DNA of 64,000 nt from contig NZ_JASVDS010000003.1 of assembly GCF_030285365.1 (NCBI RefSeq), positions 620,001 through 684,000 on the forward strand, in the 5' to 3' direction. The notes beneath the pieces are model-generated. The model did no database searches. It saw nothing but the letters and a program-made list of their open reading frames with translations, and had not been told where the DNA came from. The position numbers and the translations under genes were made by a program. Source of the DNA: Roseateles subflavus (GTDB lineage Bacteria; Pseudomonadota; Gammaproteobacteria; Burkholderiales; Burkholderiaceae_C). This document shows, piece by piece, positions 54,347 through 60,199 of the stretch (positions within the stretch are counted from its first letter, which is position 1; each line of letters begins with the position of its first letter).

Positions 54347-55198
54347 TCAGGCCGCCGGCGTCATGGTCTCGGGCTCTCGCCAGCCGAGCTGGCGGGACAG
54401 CTCGCGTGCGACGCGACGCAGCTCGCGGGCCGGCGTGTGGTGCTCGTCCAGCTCGAAATGGCCGCTGGGGCCGATGGCGGTGAGGCTCAGCACCATGCGT
54501 CCGCCGTCGTCGAACACGGGCGCCGCCAACGCGGAGACGCCCGCCACGACGCCGTCCCGCGACTGGGCCAGGCCCGTCGCACGCGTCTGGGCCAGGATGG
54601 CCTCGAAGGTCGGCGTGAAGCGGGCGGGCTCGGCGTCAGCGGTCTCGTTCAGGCGCAGGGCCTCCAGCACCTGGGCGGGCGGCAGATAGGCCGCGAAGAG
54701 CCGGCCTGAGGCCGTGCCCCGCAGGCTCATCACCGTGCCGTGACGCATGCTGATGTGGACGGGCGAGGGCGCCTCCGCGACCCGCACGATGGTCGGCCCC
54801 CGGTTGCCCCAGACCGCGATCGCCACCGTGTGCCCCAGGCTCAGCGCCAGTTCCTCGATGCGCGGCGTCGCCAGGCGCACGGGGTCGTACTGCTGCAGGC
54901 TGATCAGCCCGAGCTGCAGGGCCAGCGGCCCCAGCCCGTAGCGTCCGCCGCCGTTTTCCTGCTCCACGAGACCCAGCTTGATGTAGCTCACGAGGTAGGG
55001 GTGTGCCTTCGCGGGCGTCATGCCGGCCTCGCGGGCGAGGTCCTTCAGCGCCAGCGGCCGCCCGTGATGAGCCAGGGCCACCAGCAGCTGGCCGCCCACC
55101 TCCACGCTCTGGATGCCGCGCGGGCCACGGGTGTCGCTGTCTTTGCCGGGGAGGTCGAGGTCGTCAGGCATGGTGTCCGGGAAGGGGTGGCGGCGCAT
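54347..55198 (-). CDS. IclR family transcriptional regulator
   Basis: 283 residues. Winged-helix DNA-binding domain at about residues 28-88 (ALKDLAREAGMTPAKAHPYLVS) and IclR effector domain at about 100-275 (HTVAIAVWGNRGPTIVRV, SALAAPVFDDGGRMVLSLTAIG). A second ATG at 55171 (MPDDLDLPG) is equally plausible as start. It diverges from the MBL-fasted operon with 70 bp between, so it most likely controls that aromatic-acid operon, with an aromatic intermediate as the effector (inference). Confidence 0.9.
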   Translation of the reverse strand: MRRHPFPDTMPDDLDLPGKDSDTRGPRGIQSVEVGGQLLVALAHHGRPLALKDLAREAGMTPAKAHPYLVSYIKLGLVEQENGGGRYGLGPLALQLGLISLQQYDPVRLATPRIEELALSLGHTVAIAVWGNRGPTIVRVAEAPSPVHISMRHGTVMSLRGTASGRLFAAYLPPAQVLEALRLNETADAEPARFTPTFEAILAQTRATGLAQSRDGVVAGVSALAAPVFDDGGRMVLSLTAIGPSGHFELDEHHTPARELRRVARELSRQLGWREPETMTPAA

Positions 55199-55210: not shown

Positions 55211-55239
55211 TGGTCAGATGATTGCAAATTAGATATAGT
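55211..55239 (+). promoter_or_regulatory. Sigma-70-like promoter of the MBL-fumarylacetoacetase operon
   Basis: -35 TGGTCA and -10 TATAGT separated by 17 bp, about 30 bp upstream of the ATG, in the IclR-operon divergent region. An IclR operator would be expected here but no clear palindrome was recognised. Confidence 0.45.
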
Positions 55240-55268
55240 CAAACGCATTCGCAAGGATTGAATTGACC

Positions 55269-56225
55269 ATGAGCAAGACCTTCGCCTCGCAAGCCGACCT
55301 GGAAGAGAAGCGCGTCAGTTTCGACAAGCTCTCCGAGCACGCCTATGCCTACACCGCGGAGGGCGATCCGAACACCGGCATCGTGATCGGCGACGACGCG
55401 GTCATGGTCATCGACACGCAGGCCACGCCCGTGATGGCCGAGGACGTGATCCGCCGCATCCGCGAGGTGACGGACAAGCCCATCAAGTACGTCCTGCTGT
55501 CGCACTACCACGCCGTGCGCGTGCTGGGCGCCTCGGCCTACGAGCCGGAGCACATCATCGCGAGCCAGGACACCTACGACCTCATCGTCGAGCGTGGCGA
55601 GCAGGACAAGGCCAGCGAGATCGGCCGCTTCCCGCGCCTGTTCCGCAATGTCGAGTCCGTGCCGCCCGGCCTGACCTGGCCCACGATGACCTTCACCGGC
55701 AAGATGACCCTGTGGCTTGGCAAGCTCGAGGTGCAGATCCTCCAGCTGGGCCGTGGCCACACCAAGGGCGACACGGTGGTGTGGCTGCCGCAGGACCGCG
55801 TGCTGTTCTCGGGCGACCTGGTCGAGTTCGACGCCACCCCGTATGCCGGCGACGCCTACTTCCAGGACTGGCCGCAGACGCTGGGCAACCTGGCGGCACT
55901 GAATCCCGCCAAGCTGGTGCCCGGCCGGGGCGCCGCGCTGCAGACGCCCGAGCAGGTGCAGGCGGGCCTCGAAGGCACGCGCGCCTTCGTGTCCGAGCTC
56001 TATGCCGCCGTGAAGGCCGGCGTGGCGGCGGGCCGCGACCTCAACACCGTCTACCGCGAGGCCTACGCCGCGCTGGAGCCCACGTACGGCCGCTGGGTGA
56101 TCTTCGCCCATTGCATGCCCTTCGACGTGACCCGCGCCTATGACGAGGCCAGCGGCCATACCCATCCCCGCATCTGGACCGCCGAGCGCGACGTCGAGAT
56201 GTGGCGCGCCCTGGAAGGGCAGTGA
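55269..56225 (+). CDS. Metallo-beta-lactamase-fold protein with a degenerate second metal site
   Basis: 318 residues, MBL fold. The usual HxHxDH loop reads HYHAVR: His79 and His81 are kept, but the Asp and His of metal site 2 are Val83 and Arg84. His164 (GRGHTKGD) and the bridging Asp183 (FSGDLVEFD) are present, while the final His of the fold (PGHG) is Arg220 (PGRG). So site 1 is intact and site 2 is lost. First gene of an operon with a VOC protein, flavin hydroxylase, DUF2783 protein and fumarylacetoacetase. The ATG at 55269 is chosen over a TTG at 55263. Reaction unknown; a ring or thioester hydrolase step is possible. Confidence 0.85.
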   Translation: MSKTFASQADLEEKRVSFDKLSEHAYAYTAEGDPNTGIVIGDDAVMVIDTQATPVMAEDVIRRIREVTDKPIKYVLLSHYHAVRVLGASAYEPEHIIASQDTYDLIVERGEQDKASEIGRFPRLFRNVESVPPGLTWPTMTFTGKMTLWLGKLEVQILQLGRGHTKGDTVVWLPQDRVLFSGDLVEFDATPYAGDAYFQDWPQTLGNLAALNPAKLVPGRGAALQTPEQVQAGLEGTRAFVSELYAAVKAGVAAGRDLNTVYREAYAALEPTYGRWVIFAHCMPFDVTRAYDEASGHTHPRIWTAERDVEMWRALEGQ

Positions 56226-56245
56226 GCTCGCCGCCTGCCCCTTCT

Positions 56246-56284
56246 GCAAGACCTGACCCCACCCGGCGCAAGACCTGACACCCC
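56246..56284 (+). repeat. Dispersed REP-like repeat copies 10-11, tandem pair
   Basis: GCAAGACCTGACCCC (56246-56260, exact) and GCAAGACCTGACACCCC (56268-56284), 7 bp apart in the same orientation. They fill most of the 81-bp gap between the MBL-fold and VOC genes, inside a presumed operon. Confidence 0.75.
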
Positions 56285-56306
56285 AACGAGGACCCGAGGA
56301 GAAGCC

Positions 56307-56849
56307 ATGAAGATCGAACGCATCCACCACGTCGCCTACCGCTGCAAGGACGCCAAGACCACCGTCGAGTGGTACGTGAAGCATCTGAACATGGACTTCG
56401 TGCTGGCCATCGCCGAGGACAAGGTGCCCTCCACCCAGGCGCCGGACCCCTACATGCACCTGTTCCTGGACGCCGGCAACGGCAACATCCTGGCCTTCTT
56501 CGAGCTGCCCAACTCGCCCGACATGGGCCGTGACACCAACACGCCGGAATGGGTCCAGCACATCGCCTTCAAGGTGGACAGCGTGCAGACGCTGGAAGAC
56601 ACCAAGGCCCGCCTGCAGGCCGCCGGCATCGACGTCATCGGCGTGACCGACCACACCATCTTCAAGAGCATCTACTTCTTCGACCCGAACGGGCACCGCG
56701 TCGAGCTGGCCGCGGACGTGGGCACGCCCCAGATGTACAAGGCGCTGGACGCCTGCAAGTGGGAGATGCTGGAAGAGTGGAACCAGACCAAGCGCGCGCC
56801 CAAGCAGGCCGCGTGGATGCACGACAAGTCCCTGGCCGCGCCGCAGTAA
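56307..56849 (+). CDS. VOC family protein (glyoxalase/dioxygenase superfamily)
   Basis: 180 residues, single vicinal-oxygen-chelate module pair: IERIHHVAYRCKDAKTTVEW at the N-terminus, HIAFKVDSV near residue 91 and FDPNGHRVELAA near residue 130. Two His and a Glu could form a metal site, so it may be a dioxygenase, isomerase or a lyase. It is the second gene of the operon with the flavin hydroxylase and fumarylacetoacetase, so it could act on a ring-cleavage substrate or product. GAGGAG-like sequence lies before the ATG. Confidence 0.85.
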   Translation: MKIERIHHVAYRCKDAKTTVEWYVKHLNMDFVLAIAEDKVPSTQAPDPYMHLFLDAGNGNILAFFELPNSPDMGRDTNTPEWVQHIAFKVDSVQTLEDTKARLQAAGIDVIGVTDHTIFKSIYFFDPNGHRVELAADVGTPQMYKALDACKWEMLEEWNQTKRAPKQAAWMHDKSLAAPQ

Positions 56850-56901
56850 GCGCCGCCCCTGTCCGGACGTTCCGCCGCCGCCGCCATCGCCCCGAACGAC
56901 C

Positions 56902-58584
56902 ATGCTCAGCACCTACCAGTACCCCAGCTTCGACTACCGACAGAGCGACGAGCAGCGCACGGGTCACCCCGAGCGGCACACCGTGGTCGTGGTGGGAGCC
57001 GGCCCCATCGGGCTGAGCCTGGCGCTGGACTGCGCGTCACGCGGCCTGCGGGTGGTGGTGCTGGATGACAACAACAGCGTCAGCATCGGCTCGCGGGCCG
57101 TCTGCTATGCCAAGCGCACGCTGGAGGTCTGGGACCGCCTGGGCGTCGCGGAACCGCTGGTGCAGCAGGGCGTGAAGTGGAAGGTCGGCAAGGTCTTCCA
57201 CGGCGAAGGTCTGGCCTACCAGTTCGACCTGCTGCCGCAGGACCGGCACAAGCTGCCGGCGATGATCAATCTCCAGCAGTACTACCTGGAGGAGCGCCTC
57301 GTCGAGGCCTGCGAGGCCTCGCCGCTCGTCGAGCTGCGCTGGAAGCACCGGATGACGGCGCTGGCGCAGGACACGGCCGGCGTGCGCCTGCAGGTGGAGA
57401 CGCCCGACGGCAGCTTCGAGATGCAGACGCAGTGGCTGCTGGCCTGTGACGGCGCCGGCAGCGACACCCGCCGCATGCTGGGGGCCGAGTTCCGCGGCCA
57501 GGCCTTCCAGGACCGCTTCCTGATTGCCGACGTCGTGGTGGAGCCGCAGGCGGCCGATGCGGCGGACACGGCCATCCGGGGCCACGGCGCCACGCTGCGC
57601 CGCCTGGGCGCCGAGCCGGAGCGCTGGTTCTGGTTTGATCCGCCTTTCCATCCCGGGCAGTCGGTGCTGCTGCACAAGCAGTGTGCCAATGTCTGGCGCA
57701 TCGACTTCCAGCTCGGCTGGGACGCCGATCCGCAGGTCGAGAAGCAGCCCGAGCGCGTGATGCCCCGCATCCAGGCCATGCTCGGGCCGGACGTGCCCTT
57801 CGAGCTGGAGTGGGTCTCGATCTACCAGTTCGCCTGCCGCCGCATGGAGCGCTTCCGCCACGGCCGGGTGCTCTTCGCCGGCGATGCGGCGCACCAGGTG
57901 TCGCCCTTCGGCGCGCGCGGCGCGAACACCGGCGTGCAGGACGCCGAGAACCTGGCCTGGAAGCTCGCGGCCGTCGTGCACGGCGACGCTCCGGAGCGGC
58001 TGCTCGACAGCTACGACGAAGAGCGCATCTTCGCGGCCGACGACAACCTCCTGAACTCCACCCGCTCCACCGACTTCATCACGCCCAAGAGCCGCGCCTC
58101 GCGGCGCCTGCGCAATGCCGTGCTGGAGCTGGCGCGCACCGAGCCCTTCGCCCGGCCGCTGGTCAACAGCGGCCGGCTCTCCACGCCCACGCCCTATCTG
58201 GCCAGCCGCCTCAACACGGCCGATGCCGGCGATGCCGCCTTCGCACCCGCGGCCCCGCGCCCCGGCTGCCCGCTGCTGGATGCGCCCGTGCGTAGCGGTG
58301 ACGCGCCCGGCTGGCTCAGCGAGCAGCTGGGCCTGGGCTTCCAGCTGCTGAGCTTCGGCCCGGCGCACACGCTGCAGGTCGACCGTCTCGCCGTGGAAGT
58401 GCTGGAGGTGGGGCGCGACCTCGTCGACACCGAAGGCCTGCTCGCGCAGCGCTACGACGCCCGTCCCGGCACCGTCTATCTCTTCCGCCCCGACCAGTAC
58501 GTGGCCGCGCGCTGGCGGCAGTTCGACCCGGCCGCCGTCGAGGCCGCCGTCCGCCGGGCCCTGGCCCAGGAGCAACAGGCATGA
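56902..58584 (+). CDS. FAD-dependent aromatic hydroxylase (PHBH/MhpA type)
   Basis: 560 residues, group A flavoprotein monooxygenase. FAD Rossmann motif VVVVGAGPIGLSLALDCASR near residue 28, the DG fingerprint LLACDGAGSDTRRMLG near residue 176, and the GD motif VLFAGDAAHQVSPFGARGAN near residue 325. A C-terminal thioredoxin-like extension (about residues 440-555) is as in MhpA/resorcinol hydroxylases. It probably ortho- or para-hydroxylates a phenolic acid, giving the diol opened before fumarylacetoacetase. The stop overlaps the DUF2783 start as ATGA. Confidence 0.9.
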   Translation: MLSTYQYPSFDYRQSDEQRTGHPERHTVVVVGAGPIGLSLALDCASRGLRVVVLDDNNSVSIGSRAVCYAKRTLEVWDRLGVAEPLVQQGVKWKVGKVFHGEGLAYQFDLLPQDRHKLPAMINLQQYYLEERLVEACEASPLVELRWKHRMTALAQDTAGVRLQVETPDGSFEMQTQWLLACDGAGSDTRRMLGAEFRGQAFQDRFLIADVVVEPQAADAADTAIRGHGATLRRLGAEPERWFWFDPPFHPGQSVLLHKQCANVWRIDFQLGWDADPQVEKQPERVMPRIQAMLGPDVPFELEWVSIYQFACRRMERFRHGRVLFAGDAAHQVSPFGARGANTGVQDAENLAWKLAAVVHGDAPERLLDSYDEERIFAADDNLLNSTRSTDFITPKSRASRRLRNAVLELARTEPFARPLVNSGRLSTPTPYLASRLNTADAGDAAFAPAAPRPGCPLLDAPVRSGDAPGWLSEQLGLGFQLLSFGPAHTLQVDRLAVEVLEVGRDLVDTEGLLAQRYDARPGTVYLFRPDQYVAARWRQFDPAAVEAAVRRALAQEQQA

Positions 58585-58790
58585 GCGACGCCCTTCTCAT
58601 CCGCGAGCCGAACCTGCCCGATCCGGACGGCTTCTACGAGCAGCTGATCGACGCCCAGCGCGAGCTCTCCGACGAACAGGCCGACCTGCTGCTCGCCAAG
58701 CTGGTGCTGATCCTGTCCAATCACATCGGCGACCGCCGAGTGCTGGCCGAGGCCCTGCAGCTCGCGCGCACCAACACGCTGGAGTCCTGA
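58581..58790 (+). CDS. DUF2783 domain protein
   Basis: 69 residues, almost entirely helical, acidic: LPDPDGFYEQLIDAQRELS and ADLLLAKLVLILSNHIGD. This small family occurs with flavin hydroxylases of aromatic-acid clusters. It starts within the hydroxylase stop (ATGA), suggesting a stoichiometric partner or stabiliser of that enzyme (inference). No catalytic residues are apparent. Confidence 0.82.
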   Translation: MSDALLIREPNLPDPDGFYEQLIDAQRELSDEQADLLLAKLVLILSNHIGDRRVLAEALQLARTNTLES

Positions 58791-58879: not shown

Positions 58880-60199
58880 ATGAGCCACATCGACCACACC
58901 CACGACCCGGCCGCCCTGAGCTGGGTGGCCAGCGCCAATGCGCCCGACACCGACTTCCCCCTGCAGAACCTGCCCTACGGCCTGTTCCGCCGCGCTGGCA
59001 GCAACGACGGCGCCCGCGTGGGCGTGGCCATCGGGGACCAGATCCTTGACCTGCGCCTGGCCGCTGCCGCTGGCAAGTGGAGCGCCGCGGACACCGTGCT
59101 GCTGCACCACCTCGCTCAGGGCGACCTGAACGCCGTGATGGCCAAGCCTGCCGCCCAGCGCCGCGCGCTGCGCCAGGCGCTCTTCGCGGCGCTGCAGGCC
59201 GGCTCGAAGCAGGAAGCCGCGCTGACGGCCTGCCTGGTGCCCCAGGCCGATGCCCAGATGGCCGTGCCGTGCCGCATTGGCGACTACACGGACTTCTACA
59301 CCGGCATCCACCACGCCACCACGGTGGGCAAGCTCTTCCGCCCGGACAACCCCCTGCTGCCCAACTACAAGTGGGTGCCCATCGGCTACCACGGCCGCGT
59401 CTCCTCTATCGGCGTCAGCGGCCAGGCCGTGCGCCGCCCGCTGGGCCAGCTGAAGGCGCCCGACGCTGCCGTGCCCGTGCAAGCGGCCTGCAAGCGCCTG
59501 GACTACGAGCTGGAACTCGGCCTCTTCGTCGGCCCGGGCAACGCGTTGGGCGAGCCCATCCCGATGGCGGATTCGGAATCGCACCTCTTCGGCGTCACGT
59601 TGCTGAACGATTGGTCCGCCCGGGACGTGCAGGCCTGGGAGTACCAGCCGCTCGGTCCCTTCCTGGCCAAGAACTTCGCCACCACGATCTCCCCGTGGAT
59701 CGTCACGATGGAGGCGCTCGAGCCCTTCCGCTGCGCCTTTGCCCACCCGGCCGAGGACCCGCAGCCGCTGCCCTACATCGACAGCGAGCAGAACCGCCGC
59801 GAGGGCGGCTATGACATCGAGCTGGAGGTCTGGCTGCAGACCGCGACCATGCGCGCCGCCGGCCAGCCCGCGACGCGCCTGATGCGGTCCAACTTCAAGC
59901 ATGCCTACTGGACCCTGTCCCAGATGCTGACCCACCACGCCAGCAACGGCTGCAACCTGCAGCCGGGCGACCTGCTGGGCACGGGCACGCAGTCCGGCCC
60001 GAATCCGGAGGAGGGCGGCTCGCTGCTGGAGCTGAGCCTCGGCGGGAAGCAGGCACTGACCCTGCCCAACGGCGAGACGCGCACTTTCCTGCTGGATGGC
60101 GACACGGTCATCCTGCGCGGCCATGCCGTGAAGGACGGCGCCCGCCGCATCGGCTTCGGCGACTGCGCAGCGACGATCACGCCGGCGCCGGTGCTTTGA
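58880..60199 (+). CDS. fahA: Fumarylacetoacetase
   Basis: 439 residues; hydrolyses fumarylacetoacetate to fumarate and acetoacetate. Motifs: DYTDFYTGIHHATTVGKLFR (metal and substrate site), PIGYHGRVSSI, LDYELELGLFVGPGN, VTLLNDWSARDVQAWEYQPL and LLGTGTQSGPNP. Two-domain length is normal. In tyrosine or 3-hydroxyphenylacetate degradation it follows homogentisate 1,2-dioxygenase and maleylacetoacetate isomerase; neither gene is in the window. Confidence 0.95.
   Translation: MSHIDHTHDPAALSWVASANAPDTDFPLQNLPYGLFRRAGSNDGARVGVAIGDQILDLRLAAAAGKWSAADTVLLHHLAQGDLNAVMAKPAAQRRALRQALFAALQAGSKQEAALTACLVPQADAQMAVPCRIGDYTDFYTGIHHATTVGKLFRPDNPLLPNYKWVPIGYHGRVSSIGVSGQAVRRPLGQLKAPDAAVPVQAACKRLDYELELGLFVGPGNALGEPIPMADSESHLFGVTLLNDWSARDVQAWEYQPLGPFLAKNFATTISPWIVTMEALEPFRCAFAHPAEDPQPLPYIDSEQNRREGGYDIELEVWLQTATMRAAGQPATRLMRSNFKHAYWTLSQMLTHHASNGCNLQPGDLLGTGTQSGPNPEEGGSLLELSLGGKQALTLPNGETRTFLLDGDTVILRGHAVKDGARRIGFGDCAATITPAPVL

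Follow-up and report, generated by a model that had tools for sequence, protein, structure and literature searches.

Metallo-beta-lactamase-fold proteins with an arginine pair at the second metal site, encoded alongside MhaAB-type hydroxylase genes

In the 64,000-nucleotide stretch of Roseateles subflavus DNA analysed here (the window), we identified a metallo-beta-lactamase (MBL)-fold protein that keeps the residues of metal site 1 and carries a valine and two arginines at site-2 positions, and whose gene, together with those of its relatives, tracks an MhaAB-type hydroxylase more closely than it does the ring-cleavage and fumarylacetoacetase (FAH) enzymes. We tentatively propose that the family comprises single-metal, arginine-clamped enzymes, perhaps lactone, ester or thioester hydrolases, whose reaction lies close to homogentisate or a comparable 2,5-dihydroxyaryl acid. 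The protein is apparently an uncharacterised variant of a known fold, for which the PDB already contains a solved structure. In the window an IclR-family gene is divergent from the MBL gene, which is followed by genes for a VOC protein, an FAD hydroxylase, a DUF2783 protein and FAH:

54347 to 55198, minus strand: divergent IclR-family regulator (PF01614 and PF09339)
55269 to 56225, plus strand: MBL-fold protein of 318 aa, with His79, His81 and His164 of site 1 plus Asp183 present, and Val83, Arg84 and Arg220 at site-2 positions
55503 to 55520, plus strand: codons of the HYHAVR motif, residues 79-84, placed from the sequence and the residue numbering
55920 to 55931, plus strand: codons of the PGRG motif, residues 218-221, with Arg220 where the site-2 His is expected
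56307 to 56849, plus strand: single-domain VOC/glyoxalase-dioxygenase protein, a possible ring-cleavage enzyme (PF00903, 64.2 bits; solved relative 9u42, 'Glyoxalase', 249.6 bits)
56902 to 58584, plus strand: FAD hydroxylase, probably an MhaA-like large component (NCBIfam NF006002, PRK08132, 790.9 bits, cut-off 416)
58581 to 58790, plus strand: DUF2783 protein of 69 aa, probably an MhaB-like small component (PF10932, 91.4 bits, cut-off 25)
58880 to 60199, plus strand: FAH (TIGR01266, 549.9 bits, cut-off 375.3)

Translation of the MBL reading frame (318 aa plus stop) gave H79, Y80, H81, A82, V83, R84, H164, D183, P218, G219, R220 and G221, the numbering being computed from that translation, and PF00753 (Lactamase_B) matched residues 32-219 with 51.4 bits against a gathering cut-off of 22.7, which places the protein in the MBL-fold superfamily. 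The canonical motifs of the two-metal MBL hydrolases were both absent: HxHxDH is replaced by HYHAVR, and PGHG, which holds the last site-2 His, by PGRG. The gene is present in a single copy in its own genome (search at E 1e-5). On the opposite strand an open frame of 557 aa covers it (55239-56912 of the window, minus strand), and other long antisense open frames are likewise present in the same stretch.

To describe the family we used 163 rows aligned above 200 bits, window protein included, of which 160 are distinct (a 147-residue second ORF of locus L149 was left out); the lowest pairwise identity among the distinct sequences is 39%. Arg84, Arg220, His81 and His164 occur in 163 of 163 rows, and Val83, His79 and Asp183 in 162, the corresponding figures for distinct sequences being 160/160 and 159/160. 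Both arginines were still invariant after clustering (85 clusters at 90% and 23 at 70%), and their presence in every distinct sequence rules out chance or a sequencing slip as the source of the motif, so that, as judged from the sequences, the valine and two arginines are a family trait. The preliminary description of this DNA, made from the letters of the window, had site 1 kept and these three residues at site-2 positions, as both the translation and the 163-row alignment confirm, and its reading would have fallen had the arginines varied among orthologues. The sole exception to the motif is the protein of L110 (1477-2544, minus strand; genome G400), which has N79, L83 and A183 and keeps both arginines. 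Relatives are numerous: 505 stretches of a species-level genome collection encode one, the neighbourhood set taken from it being the best 80 of these 505, all at least 79% identical and leaning to Burkholderiales, and 52 records of a plasmid collection match the window protein at E 1e-30, one of them actinobacterial (Nonomuraea).

More distant homologues carry the ordinary ligands. In 23 such rows we found Asp at position 83 in 21, His at 84 in 21 and His at 220 in 22, the two odd rows being L086b, a contig-edge piece with a gap at 83/84 and Arg at 220, and L180, which is seemingly mis-aligned at 79-84. Three further polar residues are specific to the family, as E117, R120 and T136 occur in 160/160 of its distinct sequences and in 0/23 of the distant rows. 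In a tree of 90 rows the family formed one clade against six distant rows, which sit on very long branches, with support of 100/100, and a survey of 398 genomes returned no match between 38% and 46% identity, a gap by which the family is well set off.

The B1 and B2 metallo-beta-lactamases share the fold, over alignments that stop near residue 250 of 318, and those aligned, a B1 enzyme of B. cereus (HAHADR) and a B2 enzyme of Serratia (NYHTDR), both have an arginine where the window protein has Arg84; the aligned B1 enzyme differs from the window family in having Asp and His in place of Val83 and Arg220. Because Arg84 thus also occurs in B1/B2 enzymes, the case for the loss of site 2 rests on Val83 and Arg220, which are the true losses (Asp to Val83, His to Arg220); Arg84 by itself says nothing about whether the site is lost. 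The preliminary description had counted all three replacements as losses, which stands for Val83 and Arg220 and fails for Arg84. A PDB title describes zinc bound by Arg NH2 in a CphA mutant; the arginine concerned is presumably at the same position as Arg84, so an arginine here can sit very near the second site. These comparisons also bear on a reading of the protein as a normal two-metal MBL hydrolase, with Arg84 no more than the arginine of B1/B2 enzymes, as the aligned enzymes and the title of PDB 2nxa (the B. cereus enzyme with both R121H and C221D) would allow. Val83 and Arg220, however, are not expected as metal ligands in place of Asp and His and are fixed or nearly fixed in the family, and we regard this reading as very improbable; with two site-2 ligands gone, the family is unlikely to bind a second metal.

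Searches with named models gave no closer identity. Among the best 25 of 52 matches, the NCBIfam models for B1/B2 lactamases scored 79.8 bits (cut-off 200) and 60.6 bits (cut-off 240), ruling out membership of those classes, and the best-scoring named models were those of SoxH-related quinoprotein relay metallohydrolases, far under their cut-offs. The SoxH-related PQQ metallohydrolases 1 and 2 (TIGR04558 and TIGR04559) were rejected, with 107.4 bits against a cut-off of 300 and 112.2 bits against one of 280. For seven further family members, including that of L110, no NCBIfam match reached its cut-off (E limit 1e-10).

An AlphaFold model of the window protein built from 36 alignment rows had a mean pLDDT of 78.9 and a pTM of 0.82, with pLDDT below 50 at residues 1-9, 122-124, 126-136 and 189-191. 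Around two metal-site stretches the block means were 55 (residues 81-90) and 64 (161-170). The best fold match of the model was PDB 8d2z (VIA Z 35.2, rmsd 2.3, 292 aligned), a Burkholderia cenocepacia protein entitled Metallo-beta-lactamase superfamily protein, which is a full-length relative (433 bits, E 4.6e-129 over residues 1-316; 60% identity by Foldseek and 55% by VIA) and belongs to the same family, carrying the same HYHAVR and PGRG; a literature search with its PDB code returned no paper on this structure. The second-best match was a chlorothalonil hydrolytic dehalogenase (Z 26.7, rmsd 3.1, 278 aligned), of which 6uxu is 23% identical to the window protein, a likeness of fold that leaves the site residues aside. 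Alkylsulfatases, B1/B2 lactamases and PqsE, the MBL protein of quinolone signalling, matched at Z 18 to 21 (CphA 1x8g at 20.4), confirming that the fold is shared with solved MBL structures. PqsE (Z about 19, 13-18% identity) matched to about residue 297 and thus partly covers the C-terminal helices; we take it to be a thioesterase in an aromatic-acid pathway, and its metal motif to be canonical.

From these residues we infer a site in which His79, His81 and His164, with Asp183 close by, would hold one metal. Val83 would close the second-metal pocket, removing the site-2 Asp, while Arg84 and Arg220 would fill that pocket, where their positive charge would take the place of the absent metal's and hold the anionic group of a small aromatic acid. 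The same conservation, with His164 in 160/160 and His79 and Asp183 in 159/160 distinct sequences, could by analogy describe a non-hydrolytic mono-iron enzyme in which His79, His164 and Asp183 form a two-His/one-carboxylate site, resembling that of the ETHE1 persulfide dioxygenase, and whose step, on a hydroquinone or quinone, would either depend on oxygen or be an isomerisation. Oxygenases are often found in the neighbourhood, as this would predict; His81, however, is invariant too (160/160), giving an ordinary site 1, and we consider such an enzyme rather unlikely.

The neighbouring genes point to where an arginine-clamped, single-metal enzyme might work. MhaAB is a two-component 3-hydroxyphenylacetate 6-hydroxylase consisting of a flavoprotein and a small protein (as given in portions of PMC3053370 and PMC10983741), and it makes homogentisate from 3-hydroxyphenylacetate (PMC3053370, in part). 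The window encodes a flavoprotein of PRK08132 type (790.9 bits) with an adjacent DUF2783 protein (91.4 bits), a module of MhaAB type that matches the layout described in those portions of PMC3053370, the likeness being one of layout and size and not to the P. putida U sequences. By family, size and position we take the two products to be relatives of MhaA and MhaB. The DUF2783 reading frame (58581-58790) overlaps the end of the hydroxylase gene by four bases. The word 'lactamase' has no occurrence in the main texts of PMC3053370 and PMC10983741.

The genome from which the window comes encodes FAH and, elsewhere, one maleylacetoacetate isomerase (MaiA) over its cut-off, and gave no match to the homogentisate-pathway enzyme HmgA (TIGR01015) at E 0.001; HmgA was likewise found genome-wide in 0/21 relatives picked for lacking it locally, 17 of the 19 tried among these having FAH over cut-off. 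The VOC protein could be an alternative homogentisate dioxygenase. It occurs at E 1e-15 in 36 of 38 hand-picked MBL genomes (at least 58% identical in 20 of them and 40-48% in the other 16), and VOC and HmgA are found together in several loci, so the two are not mutually exclusive. On the conjugative IncP plasmid p2-T1 of Acidovorax sp. T1 (L174) the order IclR-MBL-VOC-MhaA stands beside phn and chrA genes. Clusters of MBL, MhaA and MhaB are also present in Comamonas testosteroni (L045) and in Dinoroseobacter shibae, the latter having hmgA and fahA as well, and Acidovorax sp. GW101-3H11 contributes a further locus of the family (L061).

To see which partner the MBL gene follows, we counted neighbours, assigned by phmmer with score limits of our own setting, in 132 distinct loci with at least 6 kb on both sides (L204, a duplicate of L025, was removed). 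Within 6 kb of the MBL gene MhaA was present in 115 loci, MhaB in 110, FAH in 73, HmgA and IclR in 66 each, VOC in 35 and MaiA in 23; MhaA was missing from this distance in 17 loci, and both HmgA and FAH in 49, of which 39 had MhaA. We then compared whole genomes in a phylum sample of 398, at E 1e-75 or better for MBL, E 1e-120 for MhaA and over the family cut-off for HmgA, taking the three surveys as the same draw (same size, same handles). They scored at most 5, 3 and 4 first-look candidates in each genome, so that absences in the following counts are soft. MBL was found in 60 genomes and close MhaA in 51, and all 51 MhaA genomes were among the 60, a count that covers MhaA as far as the E 1e-120 limit, with more distant types such as that of P. 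putida lying beyond it. HmgA was over cut-off in 105 genomes, 47 with MBL and 58 without, leaving 13 of the 60 MBL genomes showing no HmgA over cut-off. Fisher p values for co-occurrence with MBL, uncorrected for relatedness, were 1.7e-55 for MhaA and 2.5e-20 for HmgA.

When the limit for MhaA was loosened to E 1e-60, 59 of the 60 MBL genomes had it, G400 being the one without. Eight of the nine MBL genomes with no close MhaA thus have one at this limit: the homologue is only 37-43% identical in G107, G597 and G625, with a DUF2783 gene adjoining it in G107 and G625, and in G149, G301, G420, G641 and G645 the MhaA missed at E 1e-120 was later found as split or partial matches. In six genomes with MBL (G149, G286, G586, G625, G675 and G676, the last two from the 21 chosen for having no HmgA near MBL) HmgA and FAH were both below cut-off genome-wide.

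These counts weigh upon the view, put forward in the preliminary description, that the active site is suited to a dicarboxylic ring-cleavage product, the arginines binding maleyl- or fumarylacetoacetate in an enzyme placed between ring cleavage and FAH. Much agrees with it: FAH is in the window operon, HmgA is over cut-off in 47/60 MBL genomes and FAH in 30 of the 38 hand-picked ones, the MBL gene directly precedes FAH in L014 and L055, and L004, L009 and L016 keep MBL-HmgA-FAH without MhaAB, which speaks for the claim. Yet the gene follows MhaA (51/51 genomes) more closely than HmgA (47/105), 58 of the 105 HmgA genomes show no MBL, the 39 loci above pair MBL with MhaA and have no HmgA or FAH within 6 kb, and the six MBL genomes in which neither enzyme was over cut-off are difficult to reconcile with a role at this point of the pathway. 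MaiA, moreover, lies in the same cluster in 23/132 loci, and with one MaiA elsewhere in the window genome a simple replacement of maleylacetoacetate isomerase by the MBL protein is ruled out. We therefore do not favour a dicarboxylic ring-cleavage product as substrate and think it unlikely.

Several loci depart from the usual arrangement. In L004, L009 and L016 (MBL-HmgA-FAH) no MhaA (E 1e-60) or DUF2783 was found genome-wide; their proteins nest among the MhaA-linked ones in the tree and have every residue of the motif, so these loci have probably lost the hydroxylase and retained the MBL gene. L110, whose protein alone among the members seen has altered metal ligands, comes from G400, the sole sampled MBL genome with no MhaA at E 1e-60, a link that may be coincidence because L004, L009 and L016, which are outside that sample, lack MhaA and yet keep the ligands. 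Such loci allow some judgement of a further possibility, namely that the protein is a non-catalytic partner stabilising or regulating the hydroxylase, its metal site a relic. The close company with MhaA fits this, as does the L110 protein, which lost H79 and D183 with both arginines kept; against it, 159-160 of 160 distinct sequences have each of the metal ligands, G400, where L110 lies, is the single MBL genome of the sample to lack MhaA, and the gene is kept without MhaA in L004, L009 and L016, so that a purely non-catalytic role seems improbable to us. In L069 (Variovorax) the MBL gene has a downstream MFS transporter, FMN oxidoreductase and EthD/MmlI-type protein, a different catabolic setting, and in this genome no DUF2783 and an MhaA homologue of only 40% were found. 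A sub-branch of 55-57% identity from the same bacterial family as the window (L126, L127, L128 and L134) lies away from MhaAB, with L126 and L127 adjoining a TetR gene and L128 near another FAD hydroxylase.

For the single-metal, arginine-clamped enzyme that we tentatively prefer, settings with MhaAB only and with HmgA only both exist, and their common point is homogentisate or a derivative. Its place of work would be the node of the MhaAB-type two-component hydroxylase, where the compound would be homogentisate or another 2,5-dihydroxyaryl acid like it; in genomes without HmgA this dihydroxy acid is not necessarily homogentisate, and since the window genome gave no HmgA match it may be another acid there. 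The exact reaction is a guess. The likeliest chemistry would be a hydrolysis, activated by the metal, in which the hydroxylase substrate or product is released from a lactone, ester or thioester form (e.g., homogentisate gamma-lactone); it fits the usual chemistry of the MBL fold and would keep material in the pathway. The site-2 Asp normally assists water activation in MBL enzymes, and its loss weakens the hydrolysis idea. A broader proposal, which we put forward with considerable reserve as something less than probable, is that the protein is a third, unnamed partner of the homogentisate-forming hydroxylase, with an arginine pair for the second metal, taking a step outside the textbook pathway, in which a single iron may act on a hydroquinone or quinone acid by a non-hydrolytic route.

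Our literature searches found nothing joining the MBL fold, homogentisate and a monooxygenase, and nothing on a mono-metal MBL protein with an arginine replacement. As the 8d2z structure exists, the metal number and the arginine geometry are checkable at once. That an MBL protein usually travels with an aromatic-degradation hydroxylase points to a real reaction there, and if our proposal is true, a well-studied catabolic pathway would have a widespread enzyme not mentioned in the portions of PMC3053370 and PMC10983741 that describe it, and the MBL fold would gain a clear case of two arginines standing for the second metal.
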